Virus record (IMG/VR): IMGVR_UViG_3300025174_000850
Location: 1-47,813 of that record
Source: a virus
DNA: 47,813 nt
Reading direction: 5' to 3' (one strand)
The position numbers were made by a program, and so were the translations under genes. Below are positions 1 through 47,813 of the stretch, one piece after another. A model generated the notes under the pieces. That model was not told the origin of the DNA, did no database searches, and saw nothing but the letters and a program-made list of their open reading frames with translations. Position 1 is the stretch's first letter. The number at the start of each line of letters is the position of its first letter.

Positions 1-1107
1 AATCAACTCTCGATTAGATTTATCCTTGAATTGCTCTACTGATTTAATTCCATTAAGCACAAGTTCCCTGGAGTAAATAGCGCCAATACCATTCAACCTA
101 CAAAGATCGGCTTCTTCCCAGGATACTCCATATTTAATTCGATAAAGCAATTTATCAAAATAATACCCAGGATTTCCTTTTAAAATACGAATATAAATTT
201 TAGTAATACAAGAAATAATCCTGTTGGCATCGGTAATATAAGGAATGACCAAGGAATAAAATTTTCTAGTAACCTCCTCATCGCCATTCATTCTCATCCA
301 AAGCACTGTACCAAGAGTAAGAGCTCCTTCTGAAATAGAATGTAATTGTTTAGGTGAAGTACAGGCCATGAATGAATTCGAATAAGGCTTTAAATCTTTA
401 GGCACGTATCCACCAAGCATTGATCTAATATTAGCGATAGCCCAAGCGATAGCCGCAGTATCCTGTAAAAGCTGCCTATCCATGATGATTTTTAAATTAT
501 TCTTCCACGATACTACATCAAGTGGATCGAAATAATGATAAGCTGCTAGCTTGCCAAGATAGGTGCAAACATATTGGATATCCTTATCAGTATTATCAAA
601 ATCTAACGGTTGAGTAATATCCGGCTTGATCAATCCATAAAAACTAAACTCTTCAAACATGGATTCTGCCGTTGTTGAAGAAAAGAAATCCTGCTTGACA
701 GCTAACGTACGGTTAGACCAGGAAGATATTTCATTGATTGTAGTAACCCTTTTCTCAGCAATCTCGCCAATAAGATGAAAACCAATTTTAGGAACGATAG
801 TTGATTTCACTATCGGAGGACGTGTTAAAAGATCTCTCCACCTAGGTAACTTAGCTTCATCGACAATAAGAGTCGCATCACCTTCCGTATCGTACTTAGG
901 CCTACCAGCTCGACCACACTCTTGAATAATATCTAATGGATCAACCTCATTAAGACCTCTATCCGTACCTAGAATAGCCACTCTTCTAGCTGGCAAATTA
1001 CAATTATGCGTAAGGATACCGTTAGCAAAAAAATTATGATTTTTATTTATCTGAAGATCGTAATGAATCGTACCGGCCAATTGTCTTTTTATAGATTTTA
1101 TTTTCAT
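1..1107 (-). CDS. Hel308/Ski2-like helicase, C-terminal half, led by split-intein C fragment (partial)
   Basis: This frame is open from an ATG at 1107 to the window edge, so the 3' end is missing. The first 35 codons are a split-intein C fragment (listed separately) ending THN. The next residue is Cys, followed by NLPARRVAILGT, the sequence that normally follows the TLAYG motif of Ski2/Hel308 superfamily 2 helicases. Motif VI is seen as QECGRAGRP. Further down come a winged-helix-like stretch and a helix-hairpin-helix-like segment (LCRLNGIGAIYSRELV), as in Hel308. The matching N-terminal half is 1842-3089, in another frame. The predicted role is a 3'-5' DNA helicase in replication or repair, active only after trans-splicing. 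The ATG has a weak AAGAG 6-7 nt upstream and overlaps the end of the endonuclease gene. Function is by family; splicing is inferred. Confidence 0.85.
   Translation of the reverse strand, partial: MKIKSIKRQLAGTIHYDLQINKNHNFFANGILTHNCNLPARRVAILGTDRGLNEVDPLDIIQECGRAGRPKYDTEGDATLIVDEAKLPRWRDLLTRPPIVKSTIVPKIGFHLIGEIAEKRVTTINEISSWSNRTLAVKQDFFSSTTAESMFEEFSFYGLIKPDITQPLDFDNTDKDIQYVCTYLGKLAAYHYFDPLDVVSWKNNLKIIMDRQLLQDTAAIAWAIANIRSMLGGYVPKDLKPYSNSFMACTSPKQLHSISEGALTLGTVLWMRMNGDEEVTRKFYSLVIPYITDANRIISCITKIYIRILKGNPGYYFDKLLYRIKYGVSWEEADLCRLNGIGAIYSRELVLNGIKSVEQFKDKSNRELI
1003..1107 (-). other. Split intein C fragment (Int-C, 35 aa)
   Basis: Thirty-five codons starting at its own ATG. Block F is visible (HYDLQINKNHNFFANG), then block G ILTHN with penultimate His34 and terminal Asn35. 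The +1 extein residue is Cys, the nucleophile needed for trans-esterification. The length and the MKIKSIKRQ-type start resemble the C fragments of naturally split inteins such as NrdJ-1 and gp41-1. An in-frame TGA directly precedes the ATG and TAA codons lie further upstream, so it cannot be read through from the N half. Confidence 0.88.
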
Positions 1108-1828
1108 TCAATACTCTTAAAATTTTAGAGATTAAATTAATTCTTGAAATATTATTTTCCAAAAAAATTCTTATAATTTTCCAACCTAGACCGCTAAGGT
1201 ATAAATCCTTTCTCATATCTCTTATTTTACTTTTTAAATGTAATTTAGAATCAAGTTCAATACCTAACTTATTTTTTAATAAAGCAAAATCTACTGTATA
1301 ACAACCTAATTTAAACGGTATTTTATAATTATAAATAAACCCATACAGAATTAACAATTCATTGACAATTTTTTCAAATCGACTCATTCCTTTACCGTTA
1401 CCGAGATAACTTAAAGGCGATACTCTTTTTCCAGTTCGGTATTCGTTTAAAAGTCTTTCTCTAGTTAAACAACTCAATCTATTCTTAGTTTCTTCTGTAT
1501 GTTTTTTTCTATAAAATGGATTTCCAGAACCGATAAATTTTCCACTAGAATGAATCCTATGTAATTCAAAATCTGGGCTAGCATATACTTTCCTCATTGA
1601 TAATCGTATACGTTCGATTGTCTCTTTTGTTTGAGGCAATCTATTTTTAGCCGATATACTCAATTTAATTTTAGTCGATTCACACGTTAATTCAGCATCT
1701 GGAAAACGTAATTTATATTCTTTTATTTTTATTTTATGCATACCCAAATGCCCAGTACTTATTTGCTTACCTTTCCAACCGCAAATTTTACATTCGACAA
1801 AATCTTCCATAAAATAATCATAGACCAT
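1043..1828 (-). CDS. Free-standing homing endonuclease, ROS/MucR zinc finger + NUMOD3 + EDxHD (Vsr-like) nuclease
   Basis: A protein of about 261 aa if started at ATG 1828; the frame is open to 1906, and ATG 1810 is another option. Visible parts in order: a zinc-finger-like unit CKIC...HLGMH (Cys13, Cys16, His27, His31) resembling the ROS/MucR finger; a NUMOD3-like DNA-binding motif (NPFYRKKHTEETKNRLS, about 104-120), with a second weaker one before it; then a very-short-patch-repair-like nuclease core with Glu152 (FEK), Asp180 (TVDF), Glu191-Asp193-His197 (IELDSKLH), Asp204/Asp208 and GWKIIRI. This is the EDxHD family first described beside split inteins in fractured genes. It sits in frame 2 between the two helicase halves and overlaps both intein fragments' ends. 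The presumed role is cutting intein-less helicase alleles so that the element spreads by homing. Confidence 0.82.
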   Translation of the reverse strand: MVYDYFMEDFVECKICGWKGKQISTGHLGMHKIKIKEYKLRFPDAELTCESTKIKLSISAKNRLPQTKETIERIRLSMRKVYASPDFELHRIHSSGKFIGSGNPFYRKKHTEETKNRLSCLTRERLLNEYRTGKRVSPLSYLGNGKGMSRFEKIVNELLILYGFIYNYKIPFKLGCYTVDFALLKNKLGIELDSKLHLKSKIRDMRKDLYLSGLGWKIIRIFLENNISRINLISKILRVLNENKIYKKTIGRYDSLRSSDK

Positions 1829-1841
1829 AGGCCATTGTAGG

Positions 1842-2147
1842 TCAACATAATTCTTCTTGCAGCACAACATCATCATCAACCAGTAGATTTTGAGCCATTT
1901 TTTCAATTAAACCGTTCGGAGTTCTAACGTAAAAAGGATGTTTCCAATCAACTCTAACTATTCTCCCATCCATCAATTCTAACTCAAATTCATGTGTAGG
2001 ATCATATACCATCGAAGTCACAACATTATCGCTCTCAATTTTTTTAGTGAGCTCATTAAACGACCAAACATTATCTCCAGGACGAATATCTTGAACTTCT
2101 TTTACATCCCCATTCGACAAACTAATTTTTGTTCCGTAAGCAACCGA
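1842..2147 (-). other. Split intein N fragment (Int-N, 101 aa)
   Basis: The last 101 codons of the helicase N half. Block A begins at Ser1 (SVAYGTKISLSNG) instead of the more common Cys. The Hint pattern continues with VQDIRPGDNVWSF and block B DGRIVRVDWKHPFYV, whose His is kept but whose usual Thr three residues earlier is Asp. It ends in a typical LLVDDDVVL tail just before the stop, the point where natural split inteins break. Ser1 and the Asp at the TxxH position are unusual and could slow or alter splicing. Confidence 0.87.
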
Positions 2148-3089
2148 ACCATAAGCTAAAGTTGATGTGGCTACTAAATATTGGATCTTCTTATCCTTGA
2201 AATTAGTCTCTATCGTAGCCCTACTATCTTTATCAAGATCGGCATTATGAATAGCCGTTATTTTATCGAAACGATTATCCAACCACTCATAGGCTTTCTT
2301 TTGAATGGCCTTGGAATGGGCAAATATTAGCCACTGATCGTCTGGATTGCGGGTGATGATATCAAGTAGCCTATCCAGAATAAGCCGCTCGGATATGGCA
2401 TGATATTCATAACGTTTGTAATACGACGGCATGACGAATGGCTCATAGGAGATATTTAATTTACATGGTCTGTAAGTTGAGAAAACAACCTCAGTAGGCT
2501 TCTTATTGAGATCGGTTAACCATTCGGCCAATTGCCGGTAATTTTCCATTGTAGCAGAGAGAAAAACAATACGAGCTGTAGGATTCCTCCGAGTAAAAAG
2601 GATAAGGCTATTCTCCAGATGGTCACCCCTACCAAGAGAACCAATAAAATGAGCCTCATCAATAATAAGCGTACCGATCTCATTAATATACTTAGAACGC
2701 TCAATAGAAAAACGTCTACATCTGACTGCAAACATTTCATAGGTGGATACAATTATTTTAGCTTTCTGAAGTAATGCTTCTCTCTCCTCAGTAAGCTTAT
2801 AATCTCCTGTAAGCACAATCATTGAATAGTTCTGAAAATAATGCCCATTAGACCAGTCCTGGCACTTCTCCTCGGTCAAGGCTTTGAGTGGAGTAAGATA
2901 AGCTACACGCTTACCATCGCATAAAGATTTAGCCGCTATTAGCTCCGCTGCGATGGTCTTACCGGAAGATGTCGGGGCCGCTATCGAAACATTACAGTCC
3001 TTCTCGATATGAGGAAACACTTCAGATTGTACGGGATTCAGATATTTGAAAGGATAAGAACCGTATTTAAACTCAGTTGTTTTAATCAT
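1842..3089 (-). CDS. Hel308/Ski2-like helicase, N-terminal half, ending in split-intein N fragment
   Basis: A 415-aa reading frame. Residues 1-314 are the N-terminal part of a superfamily 2 DNA/RNA helicase: Walker A PTSSGKT (39-45), motif Ia LTPLKAL, DEAH box (144-147), SAT (178-180), the start of the second RecA-like domain (DQWLIFAHSK) and motif V LVATSTLAYG (305-314). Residues 315-415 are an intein N fragment. The chain stops at 1842, far short of motif VI; the rest of the helicase (CNLPARR..., QECGRAGRP) is in 1-1002. Splicing would join TLAYG to CNLPARR, giving the continuous motif found in intact relatives. It starts at ATG 3089, overlapping the upstream gene by 8 bp. It is the last replication gene seen in the leftward operon. 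Confidence 0.88.
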   Translation of the reverse strand: MIKTTEFKYGSYPFKYLNPVQSEVFPHIEKDCNVSIAAPTSSGKTIAAELIAAKSLCDGKRVAYLTPLKALTEEKCQDWSNGHYFQNYSMIVLTGDYKLTEEREALLQKAKIIVSTYEMFAVRCRRFSIERSKYINEIGTLIIDEAHFIGSLGRGDHLENSLILFTRRNPTARIVFLSATMENYRQLAEWLTDLNKKPTEVVFSTYRPCKLNISYEPFVMPSYYKRYEYHAISERLILDRLLDIITRNPDDQWLIFAHSKAIQKKAYEWLDNRFDKITAIHNADLDKDSRATIETNFKDKKIQYLVATSTLAYGSVAYGTKISLSNGDVKEVQDIRPGDNVWSFNELTKKIESDNVVTSMVYDPTHEFELELMDGRIVRVDWKHPFYVRTPNGLIEKMAQNLLVDDDVVLQEELC

Positions 3090-44484: not shown

Positions 44485-45085
44485 TGTGTTTATTCGCTAC
44501 AACCCACAAAACAAACTTCGTTACCATCTTGCCATGGCCTGTTTAGAACGCTGGGCAATGGAACCGGAAGCAGACATCGTTTTATGTGTTGACAAAAACT
44601 GTCCTTACTTCCCACATACCGATTTATCCCATTGGAGAAGAATGTTTTTACCCTCAGAATACTTCTGGATCGAAGCCAAGAAATACGCCGAGGAATGGAC
44701 TCAATCGAATATCTACGTAGTCGCCGATGACGATCAACTACTTCTAGGTACGAACTGGATTAAAAAAGGCGTAGAAGTACTAGAGGATAACGAAGAATAC
44801 GGTATGGTAGCAGCCTGGAGTAAAAACGAAGAACATAAATTCAATTCAATGGATAGTCCTACTAGTGAAATTAACGATTTAACTAATTTTTCCATCGGTT
44901 GCCCTTATTTCATTAAGAAAGGAACGATAAAGAAATTCGCTGAAGCACCCATCATGAAACAGGATTCGGTACTATCCCAACATATCAGAGAACAAGGATT
45001 GAAACTAGGATTCGTAAAGTGTTTGAGATACAACCATCTCGGTACTGGATTCTCTACCGCCGATAAGAACCATTGGCTAGCGTAA
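44477..45085 (+). CDS. Glycosyltransferase-like protein (202 aa)
   Basis: A GT-A-like fold is suggested by the start MTSVFIRYNPQNKLRYHLAM, a nucleotide-sugar site with DADE-like acidic residues (IYVVADDDQLLLG, Asp cluster at about 83-85), and FSIGCPYFIKKGTIKKF with a later HLGTG. It is much shorter than full GT2 enzymes. Together with the adjacent methyltransferase it parallels the GT-methyltransferase fusion at 16258-17427. The substrate is unknown; it may modify a phage structural protein or a host glycan. Confidence 0.6.
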   Translation: MTSVFIRYNPQNKLRYHLAMACLERWAMEPEADIVLCVDKNCPYFPHTDLSHWRRMFLPSEYFWIEAKKYAEEWTQSNIYVVADDDQLLLGTNWIKKGVEVLEDNEEYGMVAAWSKNEEHKFNSMDSPTSEINDLTNFSIGCPYFIKKGTIKKFAEAPIMKQDSVLSQHIREQGLKLGFVKCLRYNHLGTGFSTADKNHWLA

Positions 45086-45115
45086 AATATTCCAAAGGCA
45101 TATTCCATTAGTTAA
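45086..45115 (+). repeat. 30-bp dispersed hairpin repeat, copy 16
   Basis: Begins directly after the glycosyltransferase-like stop codon. The two core words are swapped relative to most copies (TTCCAAAGG precedes TTCCATTAG). Confidence 0.8.
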
Positions 45116-45135
45116 TTTAAAAAACAAGGCATAAC

Positions 45136-45657
45136 ATGGATAAACTAGAAAAACCTAAATGGACTGAATTTGATGGAACCAGTAGTGAACTGGAAATGAG
45201 TGAACTGCTCTATGGACTGGTAAGAATGTTAAAACCAAAATTACTAGTTGAAACTGGAACCTACAAAGGTTTCACAACAGCATGGCTAGCTGACGCGATA
45301 AAAGAAAATAATTACGGAGAATTTATCTCCTGCGATATTAACGAAGAATATATCACGCTAGCCCAAAAATATCTTAGCAGTTTAGAATTATCTAAATTCG
45401 TAGAATTAAGATGTATTTCCAGCTATCTCGTGGAAGAGTTAAAAGAAGCAGACTTTATTTATTCCGACAGCGATTACCAATGTAGAGCAAAGGAAATAGA
45501 ACTAGCTAAAAAAGGCTGTATTATAGTTATTCACGATACTTCTCTAGAGAGCTGGAGGAAGTATTCCCCAACTTCAAAATATTTAGGGGATACACTAGCC
45601 ACCTATGATGGACTAACATTCGGTGTCTCTAGAGGGTTCTCCATCATCCGAAAATAA
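45136..45657 (+). CDS. Class I SAM methyltransferase-like protein (173 aa)
   Basis: Motif I is LLVETGTYKGFTTAWLA (about 35-51), with the E-x-G-x-x-x-G pattern of CmcI/macrocin-O-methyltransferase-like enzymes; then FISCDINEEYI for the acidic ribose-binding residue, ADFIYSDSDY, and IIVIHDTS near the end. It probably O-methylates a sugar or small molecule produced by the preceding glycosyltransferase-like protein. It starts at ATG 45136 with AAGG 7 nt upstream and is followed directly by a terminator. Confidence 0.7.
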   Translation: MDKLEKPKWTEFDGTSSELEMSELLYGLVRMLKPKLLVETGTYKGFTTAWLADAIKENNYGEFISCDINEEYITLAQKYLSSLELSKFVELRCISSYLVEELKEADFIYSDSDYQCRAKEIELAKKGCIIVIHDTSLESWRKYSPTSKYLGDTLATYDGLTFGVSRGFSIIRK

Positions 45658-45658
45658 T

Positions 45659-45690
45659 AAAAGCCGGATATTTCTATCCGACTTTCTTTG
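45659..45690. terminator. Bidirectional intrinsic terminator
   Basis: Stem AGCCGGATA/TATCCGACT with one G-T type pairing, flanked by AAAA on one side and TTTCTTTG on the other, so it can stop both the rightward unit and any leftward transcript from 45724-45751. Confidence 0.7.
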
Positions 45691-45698
45691 TTCGACTA

Positions 45699-45740
45699 GT
45701 ATGGGGGTACCAACTAGATCAGTAGTATACCACCCATACT
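45699..45740. other. Inverted repeat around a leftward promoter
   Basis: Arms AGTATGGG and CCCATACT (45699-45706 and 45733-45740), with additional imperfect pairing inward. It overlaps the -10 of the promoter at 45724-45751 and so could be an operator for a dimeric repressor such as the HTH protein. Confidence 0.45.
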
Positions 45741-45751
45741 TATTTAGCCAA
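45724..45751 (-). promoter_or_regulatory. Leftward promoter for a short RNA
   Basis: Minus strand: -35 TTGGCT (45751-45746), 16-bp spacer, extended -10 TG-G-TATACT (45729-45724), preceded by TTAAAATTTTT. It has no gene downstream before the terminator at 45659-45690, so it would yield an RNA of roughly 60 nt. Confidence 0.5.
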
Positions 45752-45760
45752 TAAAAATTT

Positions 45761-45805
45761 TAAAATAAAAAAACATACCACTCGCATTTCTGCAAGCAGT
45801 ATGTT
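45761..45805 (-). terminator. Intrinsic terminator for a leftward transcript
   Basis: On the minus strand, arms AACATACTGCTTGC and GCGAGTGGTATGTT (two mismatches) form a long hairpin followed by a T-rich tract (TTTTTTTATTTT). A second small hairpin AACCC/GGGTT lies just before it (45824-45836). No minus-strand gene precedes it, which suggests a non-coding RNA. Confidence 0.75.
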
Positions 45806-46381
45806 ATATCGAATAATATGAAAAACCCGATGGGTTCTCATCTTGACACCACCTACGGAAAAGTCAAGGATATTTTTTGCCTAGCCCAACCAGTAGACAA
45901 GCATCATAAACTTGTAGGGCGAGATACTAAGCAGACAAGCACAAGAGCAGGCGCTGTCTCCCCTGACAACCTGCAACTGAACTCCCAAAAGGATTACTTG
46001 CTTGGATCGTTGTATCGTGGATCGGGTATTTCAGTCTACGGGAAGACACATCCCTATCTGAATTTAGAAGATTTGGTCTTCTACATTCAAGGCAGTAATA
46101 GTTACCTTAAAAGAAATAATTCAGCTTGGAAGCGGATTAGCCCGATTGCTAATTATTTTGATTCTGGTAACGAAAATAATTTGTTGAATATTAGTGATAG
46201 CCGACAATTACTCTTACTACCCTTGATTGTTAGTATTTCTAGTATTTCTAGTTATTTAGGTTTAGAACACTAGTACGTTCCCGCTCGCTTCACTCGCTAA
46301 ACACAGAAATACAGAAATACAGAGAAGACCGGATACGCCAGCTCGACGACTCGCTGCCCACTTCTAAGTTCAGTAGGTAAA
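45806..46381 (-). ncRNA. Candidate large structured non-coding RNA (about 610 nt with its terminator)
   Basis: This stretch has no minus-strand reading frame of note but has a promoter at one end (46388-46417) and intrinsic terminators at the other. It contains many local stems, including GTTTAG/CTAAAC, ATTAGC/GCTAAT, TAGAAGA/TCTTCTA, TTCAG/CTGAA enclosing GGGA/TCCC (46030-46062), GCAGG/CCTGC enclosing GTC/GAC, ACAAG/CTTGT and CTTGAC/GTCAAG. The plus strand carries a 151-codon frame (45818-46273) with no ribosome-binding site and no recognisable family; a protein there cannot be excluded. Size and setting recall phage large ornate RNAs (GOLLD, ROOL), but I cannot match it to any. Confidence 0.4.
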
Positions 46382-46387
46382 GGGGAT

Positions 46388-46417
46388 GATATATCTAGAT
46401 AATGAAATAATAGTCAA
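46388..46417 (-). promoter_or_regulatory. Promoter for the leftward non-coding region
   Basis: Minus strand: -35 TTGACT (46417-46412), the same hexamer as in the HTH promoter, 18-bp spacer, -10 TATATC (46393-46388). It directly adjoins repeat copy 17. The long spacer and imperfect -10 make it moderate. Confidence 0.45.
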
Positions 46418-46447
46418 TTAACTTATGGAATATGCTAATTGAATAAA
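46418..46447 (+). repeat. 30-bp dispersed hairpin repeat, copy 17 (variant)
   Basis: Variant with CTTATGG in place of CCTTTGG and a divergent right half. It precedes the outer membrane protein gene; the variant CTTATGG is shared only with copy 18. Confidence 0.75.
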
Positions 46448-46490
46448 TACCCAACACCTAGTTGATGTTGTTGGAGTATCAAGGTTACCA

Positions 46491-47471
46491 TTGATAATGA
46501 TGTCACTAATTCTTACTCAGTCTTTATTTAGTCAGACCCTTACTACCCACGGGATTGTAGAGGTGGGGACCGTATTTAGCGACTTAAAGCGTCTCGCTGG
46601 TCATGAAGTATCCATCGGAGACTTCTTCGCCAATTTTAGGTTTGAAATCAGCTATGGCAGTACCAATATCTACTTTGACTGGATTCCAAAAGAAACAACT
46701 TTGGATTCTACAGATTGGAAATATTCAGATGCGTATGTTGCACGACCATATTTCCTTCCCGGTATAAATGTACACTGGTATGATTTGCAATTGACATTTG
46801 GTGCATTTATAGCAAGTGGACTAGAACCTATTTCATCTGTACCTACTAGTTATTATCTATCTGGTCCTCTCCCATTATTATTATCGAGACGCTACGATAA
46901 GGGGGTAAAAGCAAAATATCATCCAAATGATGTGATAACATTTGAGTTAGCCGTGGTGGATGGGGATTGGACTCTTGGAGATTCCGATGTTTTTGCATCT
47001 CGCACTGATTCCAACAACTCCTATCCGTCATACGCTATAGGATTTGAGGTAACTCCGACTCGATATATTTATTTTGGTACAACCAACACAACTGGTGATA
47101 CTGGCAGTTATCCCGGAGATAAGAGGCGAGAGGATGATATTATCGTCTATACTGGTTTTCGCCACTCCTTAGCATCAGCACGTACCTTTATCTCTTTCAT
47201 GGGGCGCAACCAAACTGGAGACGGAAGTGGGAGACATACTGATGCCGTGCATACGGGAGCCGTGGGATTGGAGGTATCTTATTGGATTTTTTATGGTAGT
47301 GTTTGGTATATGAAGAATTTTAGCAATCAACCAGATGGGGAGATTTGGTTTAACTATACAGATAATCTATTAGGATGGTCTATTGGAGCAAAATGGAAAA
47401 TGGTAGGCGTTCAATACGAAAGACTAGGTATGGATAACATAATTGTAACTAGTATTCAATTAAACTGGTAA
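46491..47471 (+). CDS. Outer-membrane beta-barrel (porin-like) protein
   Basis: About 326 aa from TTG 46491 (AAGG 6 nt upstream); ATG 46497 is the alternative. A short signal peptide (MMSLILTQSLFSQ) is followed by alternating-hydrophobicity strands with many aromatic residues (IYFDWIPKE, HWYDLQLTFGAFIASG, WIFYGSVWYMKNF) and a C-terminal strand ending QLNW, the BAM-type signature with a terminal aromatic residue. The family resembles porins but cannot be named. As part of a phage it could be a lysogenic-conversion protein altering the host surface, or the window may pass into host DNA here. Repeats flank it on both sides. Confidence 0.72.
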   Translation: MIMMSLILTQSLFSQTLTTHGIVEVGTVFSDLKRLAGHEVSIGDFFANFRFEISYGSTNIYFDWIPKETTLDSTDWKYSDAYVARPYFLPGINVHWYDLQLTFGAFIASGLEPISSVPTSYYLSGPLPLLLSRRYDKGVKAKYHPNDVITFELAVVDGDWTLGDSDVFASRTDSNNSYPSYAIGFEVTPTRYIYFGTTNTTGDTGSYPGDKRREDDIIVYTGFRHSLASARTFISFMGRNQTGDGSGRHTDAVHTGAVGLEVSYWIFYGSVWYMKNFSNQPDGEIWFNYTDNLLGWSIGAKWKMVGVQYERLGMDNIIVTSIQLNW

Positions 47472-47501
47472 AAATCGATGTAATTAATAAATAATATCCA
47501 A

Positions 47502-47531
47502 TTAACTTATGGAATATGCCGATGGAATATA
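47502..47531 (+). repeat. 30-bp dispersed hairpin repeat, copy 18 (variant)
   Basis: Same CTTATGG variant as copy 17. It carries ATG-CCG-ATG-GAA-TAT in the sense of the next gene and is in frame with it. Confidence 0.82.
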
Positions 47532-47803
47532 AATCTATGGAAACACTAGCCAACCAAACTAATCGTGCCTTCTTCAAAAAGATTTTAGATGACTTGAATC
47601 GTAAGTTATACGACTTAGATATCCGTCTAGAACAAGTAGAAAAGAAAATAGAAAATATCGAAATAGTTAGAATAACAGATAGAGATGATGCAGTTGTTAC
47701 CATTGATGATTTACATACCGTCAGAGATGACTTGACAAGTAGGATAGATGATATCTGGAAAGCAGTTAAAGAAATTTTGAAAAATAGTGAAAAAGGTTCT
47801 TGA
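47516..47803 (+). CDS. Small coiled-coil protein (95 aa or shorter)
   Basis: Heptad-rich throughout (LDDLNRKLYDLDIRLEQVEK, VRDDLTSRIDDIWKAVKEIL), with no membrane segment or cysteines. The first ATG (47516) and second (47522) are inside repeat copy 18, giving MPMEY at the start; ATG 47537 (METLANQ) is an alternative outside the repeat. No family recognised. It may be an accessory to the outer membrane protein gene before it. Confidence 0.6.
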   Translation: MPMEYKSMETLANQTNRAFFKKILDDLNRKLYDLDIRLEQVEKKIENIEIVRITDRDDAVVTIDDLHTVRDDLTSRIDDIWKAVKEILKNSEKGS

Positions 47804-47813
47804 CATTTGTTAA

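Follow-up and report, generated by a model that had tools for sequence, protein, structure and literature searches.

An intergenic stretch of about 650 bases, lying near one contig end of a tailed phage record, is tentatively interpreted here as an orphan structured-RNA element, the core of which (Domain B, 46058-46373) would most probably be carried in a plus-strand transcript, likely as a leader or spacer. The window, by which we mean the whole stretch of DNA analysed, is this 47.8-kb record (47,813 nt). A preliminary description had placed a minus-strand structured RNA at the locus; the 3' terminators have stood up to analysis and a structured non-coding element is still the best reading, but the strand of the main domain and the promoter are not supported.

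The minus-strand genes of the phage include those for DNA polymerase A, a DnaB-like helicase, a RecA-like protein, terminase, portal and prohead protease, and plus-strand accessory genes fill the final 3.7 kb of the window. The accessory block begins with two unknowns and a methyltransferase (45136-45657), and continues to the right of the element with a porin-like gene (46491-47471, plus strand; weak BBP2 match, under the Pfam cut-off) and a 95-aa gene (47516-47803, plus strand). The earlier view that the interval has no convincing gene was upheld, in that none was found between 45657 and 46491; the minus strand of the region has no ORF longer than 40 aa and the plus strand a single one, of 151 codons (45818-46273), which provides the competing reading. 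A replication origin was considered because of a shallow cumulative GC skew minimum at 44-46 kb, but was rejected as the skew tracks gene orientation. At the opposite end of the window, a DEAD-box helicase gene (1-3089, minus strand) is split over several frames: the ORF at 1842-3089 (minus) carries the N-terminal part and ends in an intein N-domain, that at 1043-1906 (minus) encodes NUMOD3 and a DUF559/VSR-like nuclease, and the frame at 1-1107 (minus) starts with an apparent intein C-domain (...NHNFFANGILTHNC) followed by the remaining helicase, an arrangement suggestive of a 'fractured gene' in which a split intein is accompanied by a homing endonuclease.

Relatives were sought with distant blastn searches (phages, plasmids), peptide-pattern scans (IMG/VR, GTDB genomes), and searches with exact 16-21-nt patterns taken from conserved pieces. 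The sole relative found was IMGVR_UViG_3300025312_001127 (hereafter the sibling), with 99.3% identity over 11.3 kb; no others were found in phages, plasmids, IMG/VR or GTDB genomes, and the pattern and blastn searches otherwise returned chance matches only. Scans with other phage genes recovered the same sibling (terminase), a remote match only (polymerase) or nothing (porin gene). The interpretation is accordingly based on the window and the sibling, two sequences in all. The two contigs end within 3 nt of each other at the right (47813), which suggests that the genome ends here or that both assemblies broke at the same place.

The differences between the two genomes are unevenly distributed. 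The leftmost 10.4 kb of the overlap contains one base difference, divergence begins at 45531, and 45531-45761 is strongly different. A stretch at 45689-45718 (GTTCGACTAGTATGGGGGTACCAACTAGA) is the same in the sibling despite heavy differences to its right, and no second copy of it occurs in the window. Block A (45762-46028), to which no strand of action is assigned, shows 0 differences over 267 nt, the rest of the tract differing by 6-12%. The chance of such an identity would be ~2e-8 if divergence were uniform at 6.4%, so that it points to either constraint or a recombination patch. Except for a terminator at its left end, this block has no significant folding. Further right, 14 of 219 positions differ in 46029-46247, 46248-46302 is replaced in the sibling, and the right-hand block (46303-46391, plus strand), which contributes the 3' strand of the basal stem described below, differs at 1 of 89 nt. 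The next gene to the right is porin-like in the window and a 95-aa gene in the sibling.

Relative to shuffled controls, the 648-nt region folds more stably than expected on both strands (z -4.04 minus, z -4.62 plus). In a 300-nt scan, 45601-45900 on the minus strand was the most extreme of 318 segments (z -7.3), mostly because of the terminators it contains. Domain B, on the plus strand, is predicted to be a closed unit of 316 nt in which a 25-bp basal stem (46058-46082 with 46323-46334 and 46361-46373), broken by one 26-nt hairpin-bearing bulge, leads to a three-way junction and two arms (46087-46226 and 46233-46320). The segment 46056-46375 has a plus-strand energy of -91.1 kcal/mol, against -63.8 +/- 4.7 in shuffles (z -5.78), and z -4.32 on the minus strand. 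Among all 320-nt segments of a whole-window scan, its plus-strand energy gain of about -27 to -29 kcal/mol was beaten only by a terminator segment (45601-45920, minus), a comparison biased toward Domain B since its frame was chosen. Minimum free energy (MFE) structures computed separately for the plus strand of each genome share one common architecture. The seven local stems of 5-7 bp previously reported were an understatement of the structure, the main feature being the long-range 25-bp stem of the plus strand.

The substitutions in the sibling were used as a test of strand, with pairs counted on a structure predicted from the window sequence alone and across two near-identical phages. On the plus strand, seven changed pairs are kept, six via G-U exchange and one via a C-G to U-A double change, and two are broken, compared with expectations of 5.5 and 6.7; on the minus strand two are kept and eight broken. 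When the same substitutions were placed at random 20,000 times, 0.3% of the trials gave no more than two plus-strand breaks (P = 0.003, to be doubled because both strands were tested), and the minus-strand break count was ordinary (P = 0.44). The basal stem is paired at 25 of 25 positions on the plus strand in both genomes, since the odd pairs in it read as G-U there and would read as A-C on the minus strand. Set against random placements, the two-sequence alifold energy also ranked higher on the plus strand (1/500) than on the minus (14/500); the MFE of the sibling, taken over a 483-nt segment without the right arm, gave 1/500 on the minus strand and 111/500 on the plus. Paired cells in the two rows amounted to 95.3% (plus) and 94.1% (minus), and shuffling was non-significant, as expected for two sequences. 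Covariation in relatives, proposed as a check on the minus-strand RNA, amounts here to this one relative and a single double change: most changed pairs are kept on the plus strand, and those of the minus strand outside the terminators are mostly broken. As far as two sequences allow, the substitutions speak for plus-strand pairing in the main folded domain, and such G-U asymmetry can challenge a strand call that is based on a terminator alone.

Strong intrinsic terminators on the minus strand had been described, and two strong matches were indeed recovered, both kept in the sibling. The one at 45805-45772 (minus), reading leftward, has 15 pairs, a GAAA loop and a TTTTTATTTT tail, with three G-U pairs that are present on the minus strand only. 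The other, a terminator-like hairpin at 45686-45659 (minus) of 12 pairs, also with a GAAA loop, adjoins the methyltransferase stop codon and may act bidirectionally; both sibling substitutions within it retain the minus-strand pairs. In total, seven terminator-like sites were identified in 44800-47813, against 2.0 +/- 1.2 in shuffles, and the main ones recur in the sibling.

The supposed TTGACT promoter (46419-46414) fared less well, being absent among the sigma-70-like sites and having a -10 region that is altered in the sibling. This hexamer lies at the edge of a dispersed repeat of ~28 bp (consensus TTAACCTTTGGAATATTCCAATGGAATA) that recurs in numerous intergenic gaps; the local copy (46405-46445) contains or borders the supposed -35 box. 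The repeat occurs at about 15-18 sites across the whole window (for example, 4602, 8626, 12593, 15201, 17433, 17468, 23870, 24880, 33970, 41459, 43795, 45088, 46418 and 47502), in either orientation, mainly between genes and often just upstream of a ribosome-binding site, and its copies may serve a phage regulator as operators or promoters. Two direct copies flank the porin-like gene, the whole spanning 46405-47529, and the sibling, in which this gene is absent, has one copy left; from this comparison, the porin-like gene appears to have been gained or lost as a cassette at the repeat.

Three other explanations of the locus were weighed. A free-standing minus-strand non-coding RNA of ~250-640 nt, ending at the terminator at 45805-45772, is considered rather unlikely, though it would account for the strong conserved tandem terminators with their GAAA loops, the lack of a notable minus-strand ORF upstream of them, the minus-strand fold (z -4.0) and the sibling minus-strand MFE, which beats 499 of 500 random placements; the repeat copy at the right end is, moreover, oriented as most copies are with respect to the adjacent transcription unit. 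However, pairs outside the terminators are broken rather than kept by the substitutions, and the -10 region of the proposed promoter is changed in the sibling. We also regard as unlikely an element acting at the DNA level or a remnant, such as an inverted-repeat insertion or decayed mobile element with palindromic arms and no functional RNA. The excess of folding on both strands is consistent with such an origin, as are the replaced apical arm in the sibling and the character of the tract as a mosaic hot spot of recombination or insertion, beside a gene that is present or absent, with a single sibling difference in the 10.4 kb to its left. Against this, the pair-preserving substitutions and G-U asymmetry suggest an RNA, no other copy exists in the window or the searched collections, and no target-site duplication was seen by eye.

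That the plus-strand frame at 45818-46273 encodes a real 151-aa protein, with the folding incidental, is judged improbable. The frame is open in the sibling despite 14 substitutions, yet 42% of neutral simulations likewise created no stop. Its changes comprise eight non-synonymous and five synonymous codons, spread 5/5/4 over the codon positions with no third-position excess, as opposed to the adjacent methyltransferase tail, where eight of the 12 codon changes are synonymous; at least five synonymous changes arose in about a quarter of neutral trials. The protein-like pattern that was to have argued against a non-coding RNA is thus not seen, but the result is not decisive. The C-terminus of the frame is replaced in the sibling, no ribosome-binding site was seen upstream of its ATG, and no homologues were found in Pfam, PHROGs, phages, PDB or genomes, the only PDB match being a homing endonuclease at E 0.78. 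A LAGLIDADG remnant was entertained because the frame contains DYLLGSLYRGSG, which resembles the motif, but was dropped as a chance likeness, there being no LAGLIDADG_2 match. An AF2 model from the two sequences had a mean pLDDT of 30 and counts as weak evidence. A coding role is not excluded by codon use, because the low codon score of the frame is shared by the real methyltransferase next door.

Under the preferred reading of a plus-strand structured element, the 316-nt domain would fold within the plus-strand transcript through its long basal stem and three-way junction, and the tandem minus-strand terminators to its left would stop convergent transcription. The mRNA of the downstream accessory gene would then carry the element as a long, structured leader or spacer, an arrangement which we infer from the position of the element and regard as the likeliest because no plus-strand terminator follows. 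The stable closed domain could shield or punctuate the accessory-gene mRNA; alternatively, the structured leader might be processed into a free RNA. Several observations pull the other way: the comparison involves two sequences from near-identical phages and one double substitution, the sibling MFE over the 483-nt segment is notable on the minus strand and not on the plus, the strong terminators indicate a minus-strand transcript, no plus-strand promoter or terminator is recognisable for the element, and the 151-codon frame is open in both genomes. A role as regulator of a single gene is weakened by the domain having been kept though the downstream gene differs.

With regard to known RNA classes, the resemblance to GOLLD and ROOL previously raised did not extend to membership, no family reaching the Rfam gathering threshold in the window; neither of the two was among the Rfam matches up to E 5-10, and group II intron families were also lacking among the matches. 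A group I intron, which the candidate recalls as a large plus-strand RNA fold overlapped by an ORF, was rejected since RF00028 gave no match at E <= 10 and the element sits between genes rather than within one. Long structured mRNA leaders and intercistronic spacers are similar in presenting, ahead of an accessory gene, a plus-strand fold that no terminator follows, but here the downstream gene varies between genomes and no aptamer or known leader family was recognised. ROOL is an RNA-only multimeric cage. The present locus resembles it as a candidate structured non-coding RNA of ~600 nt in a phage, but differs from ROOL in lacking an Rfam match, in the absence of a tRNA from the window and in a core domain that is not minus-favoured; ROOL is often near tRNA islands (PMC12286853). 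GOLLD is comparable as a large structured phage RNA with no role assigned, and many of its members are longer than 800 nt and often lie close to tRNA islands of phages or prophages (PMC12286853), whereas the candidate has no Rfam match and its 47.8-kb record, which is probably incomplete, has no tRNA. It is quite unlikely, in our estimation, that the locus represents a new large phage RNA class outside Rfam, combining a plus-strand three-way-junction domain with a fully conserved companion block that is transcribed from the opposite strand and ends at tandem GAAA-loop terminators. Phage genomes have few unused bases. If the structured-RNA interpretation is correct, this region of ~0.6 kb, structured, with substitutions that preserve pairs and belonging to no family, would join GOLLD and ROOL among the few large phage RNAs.
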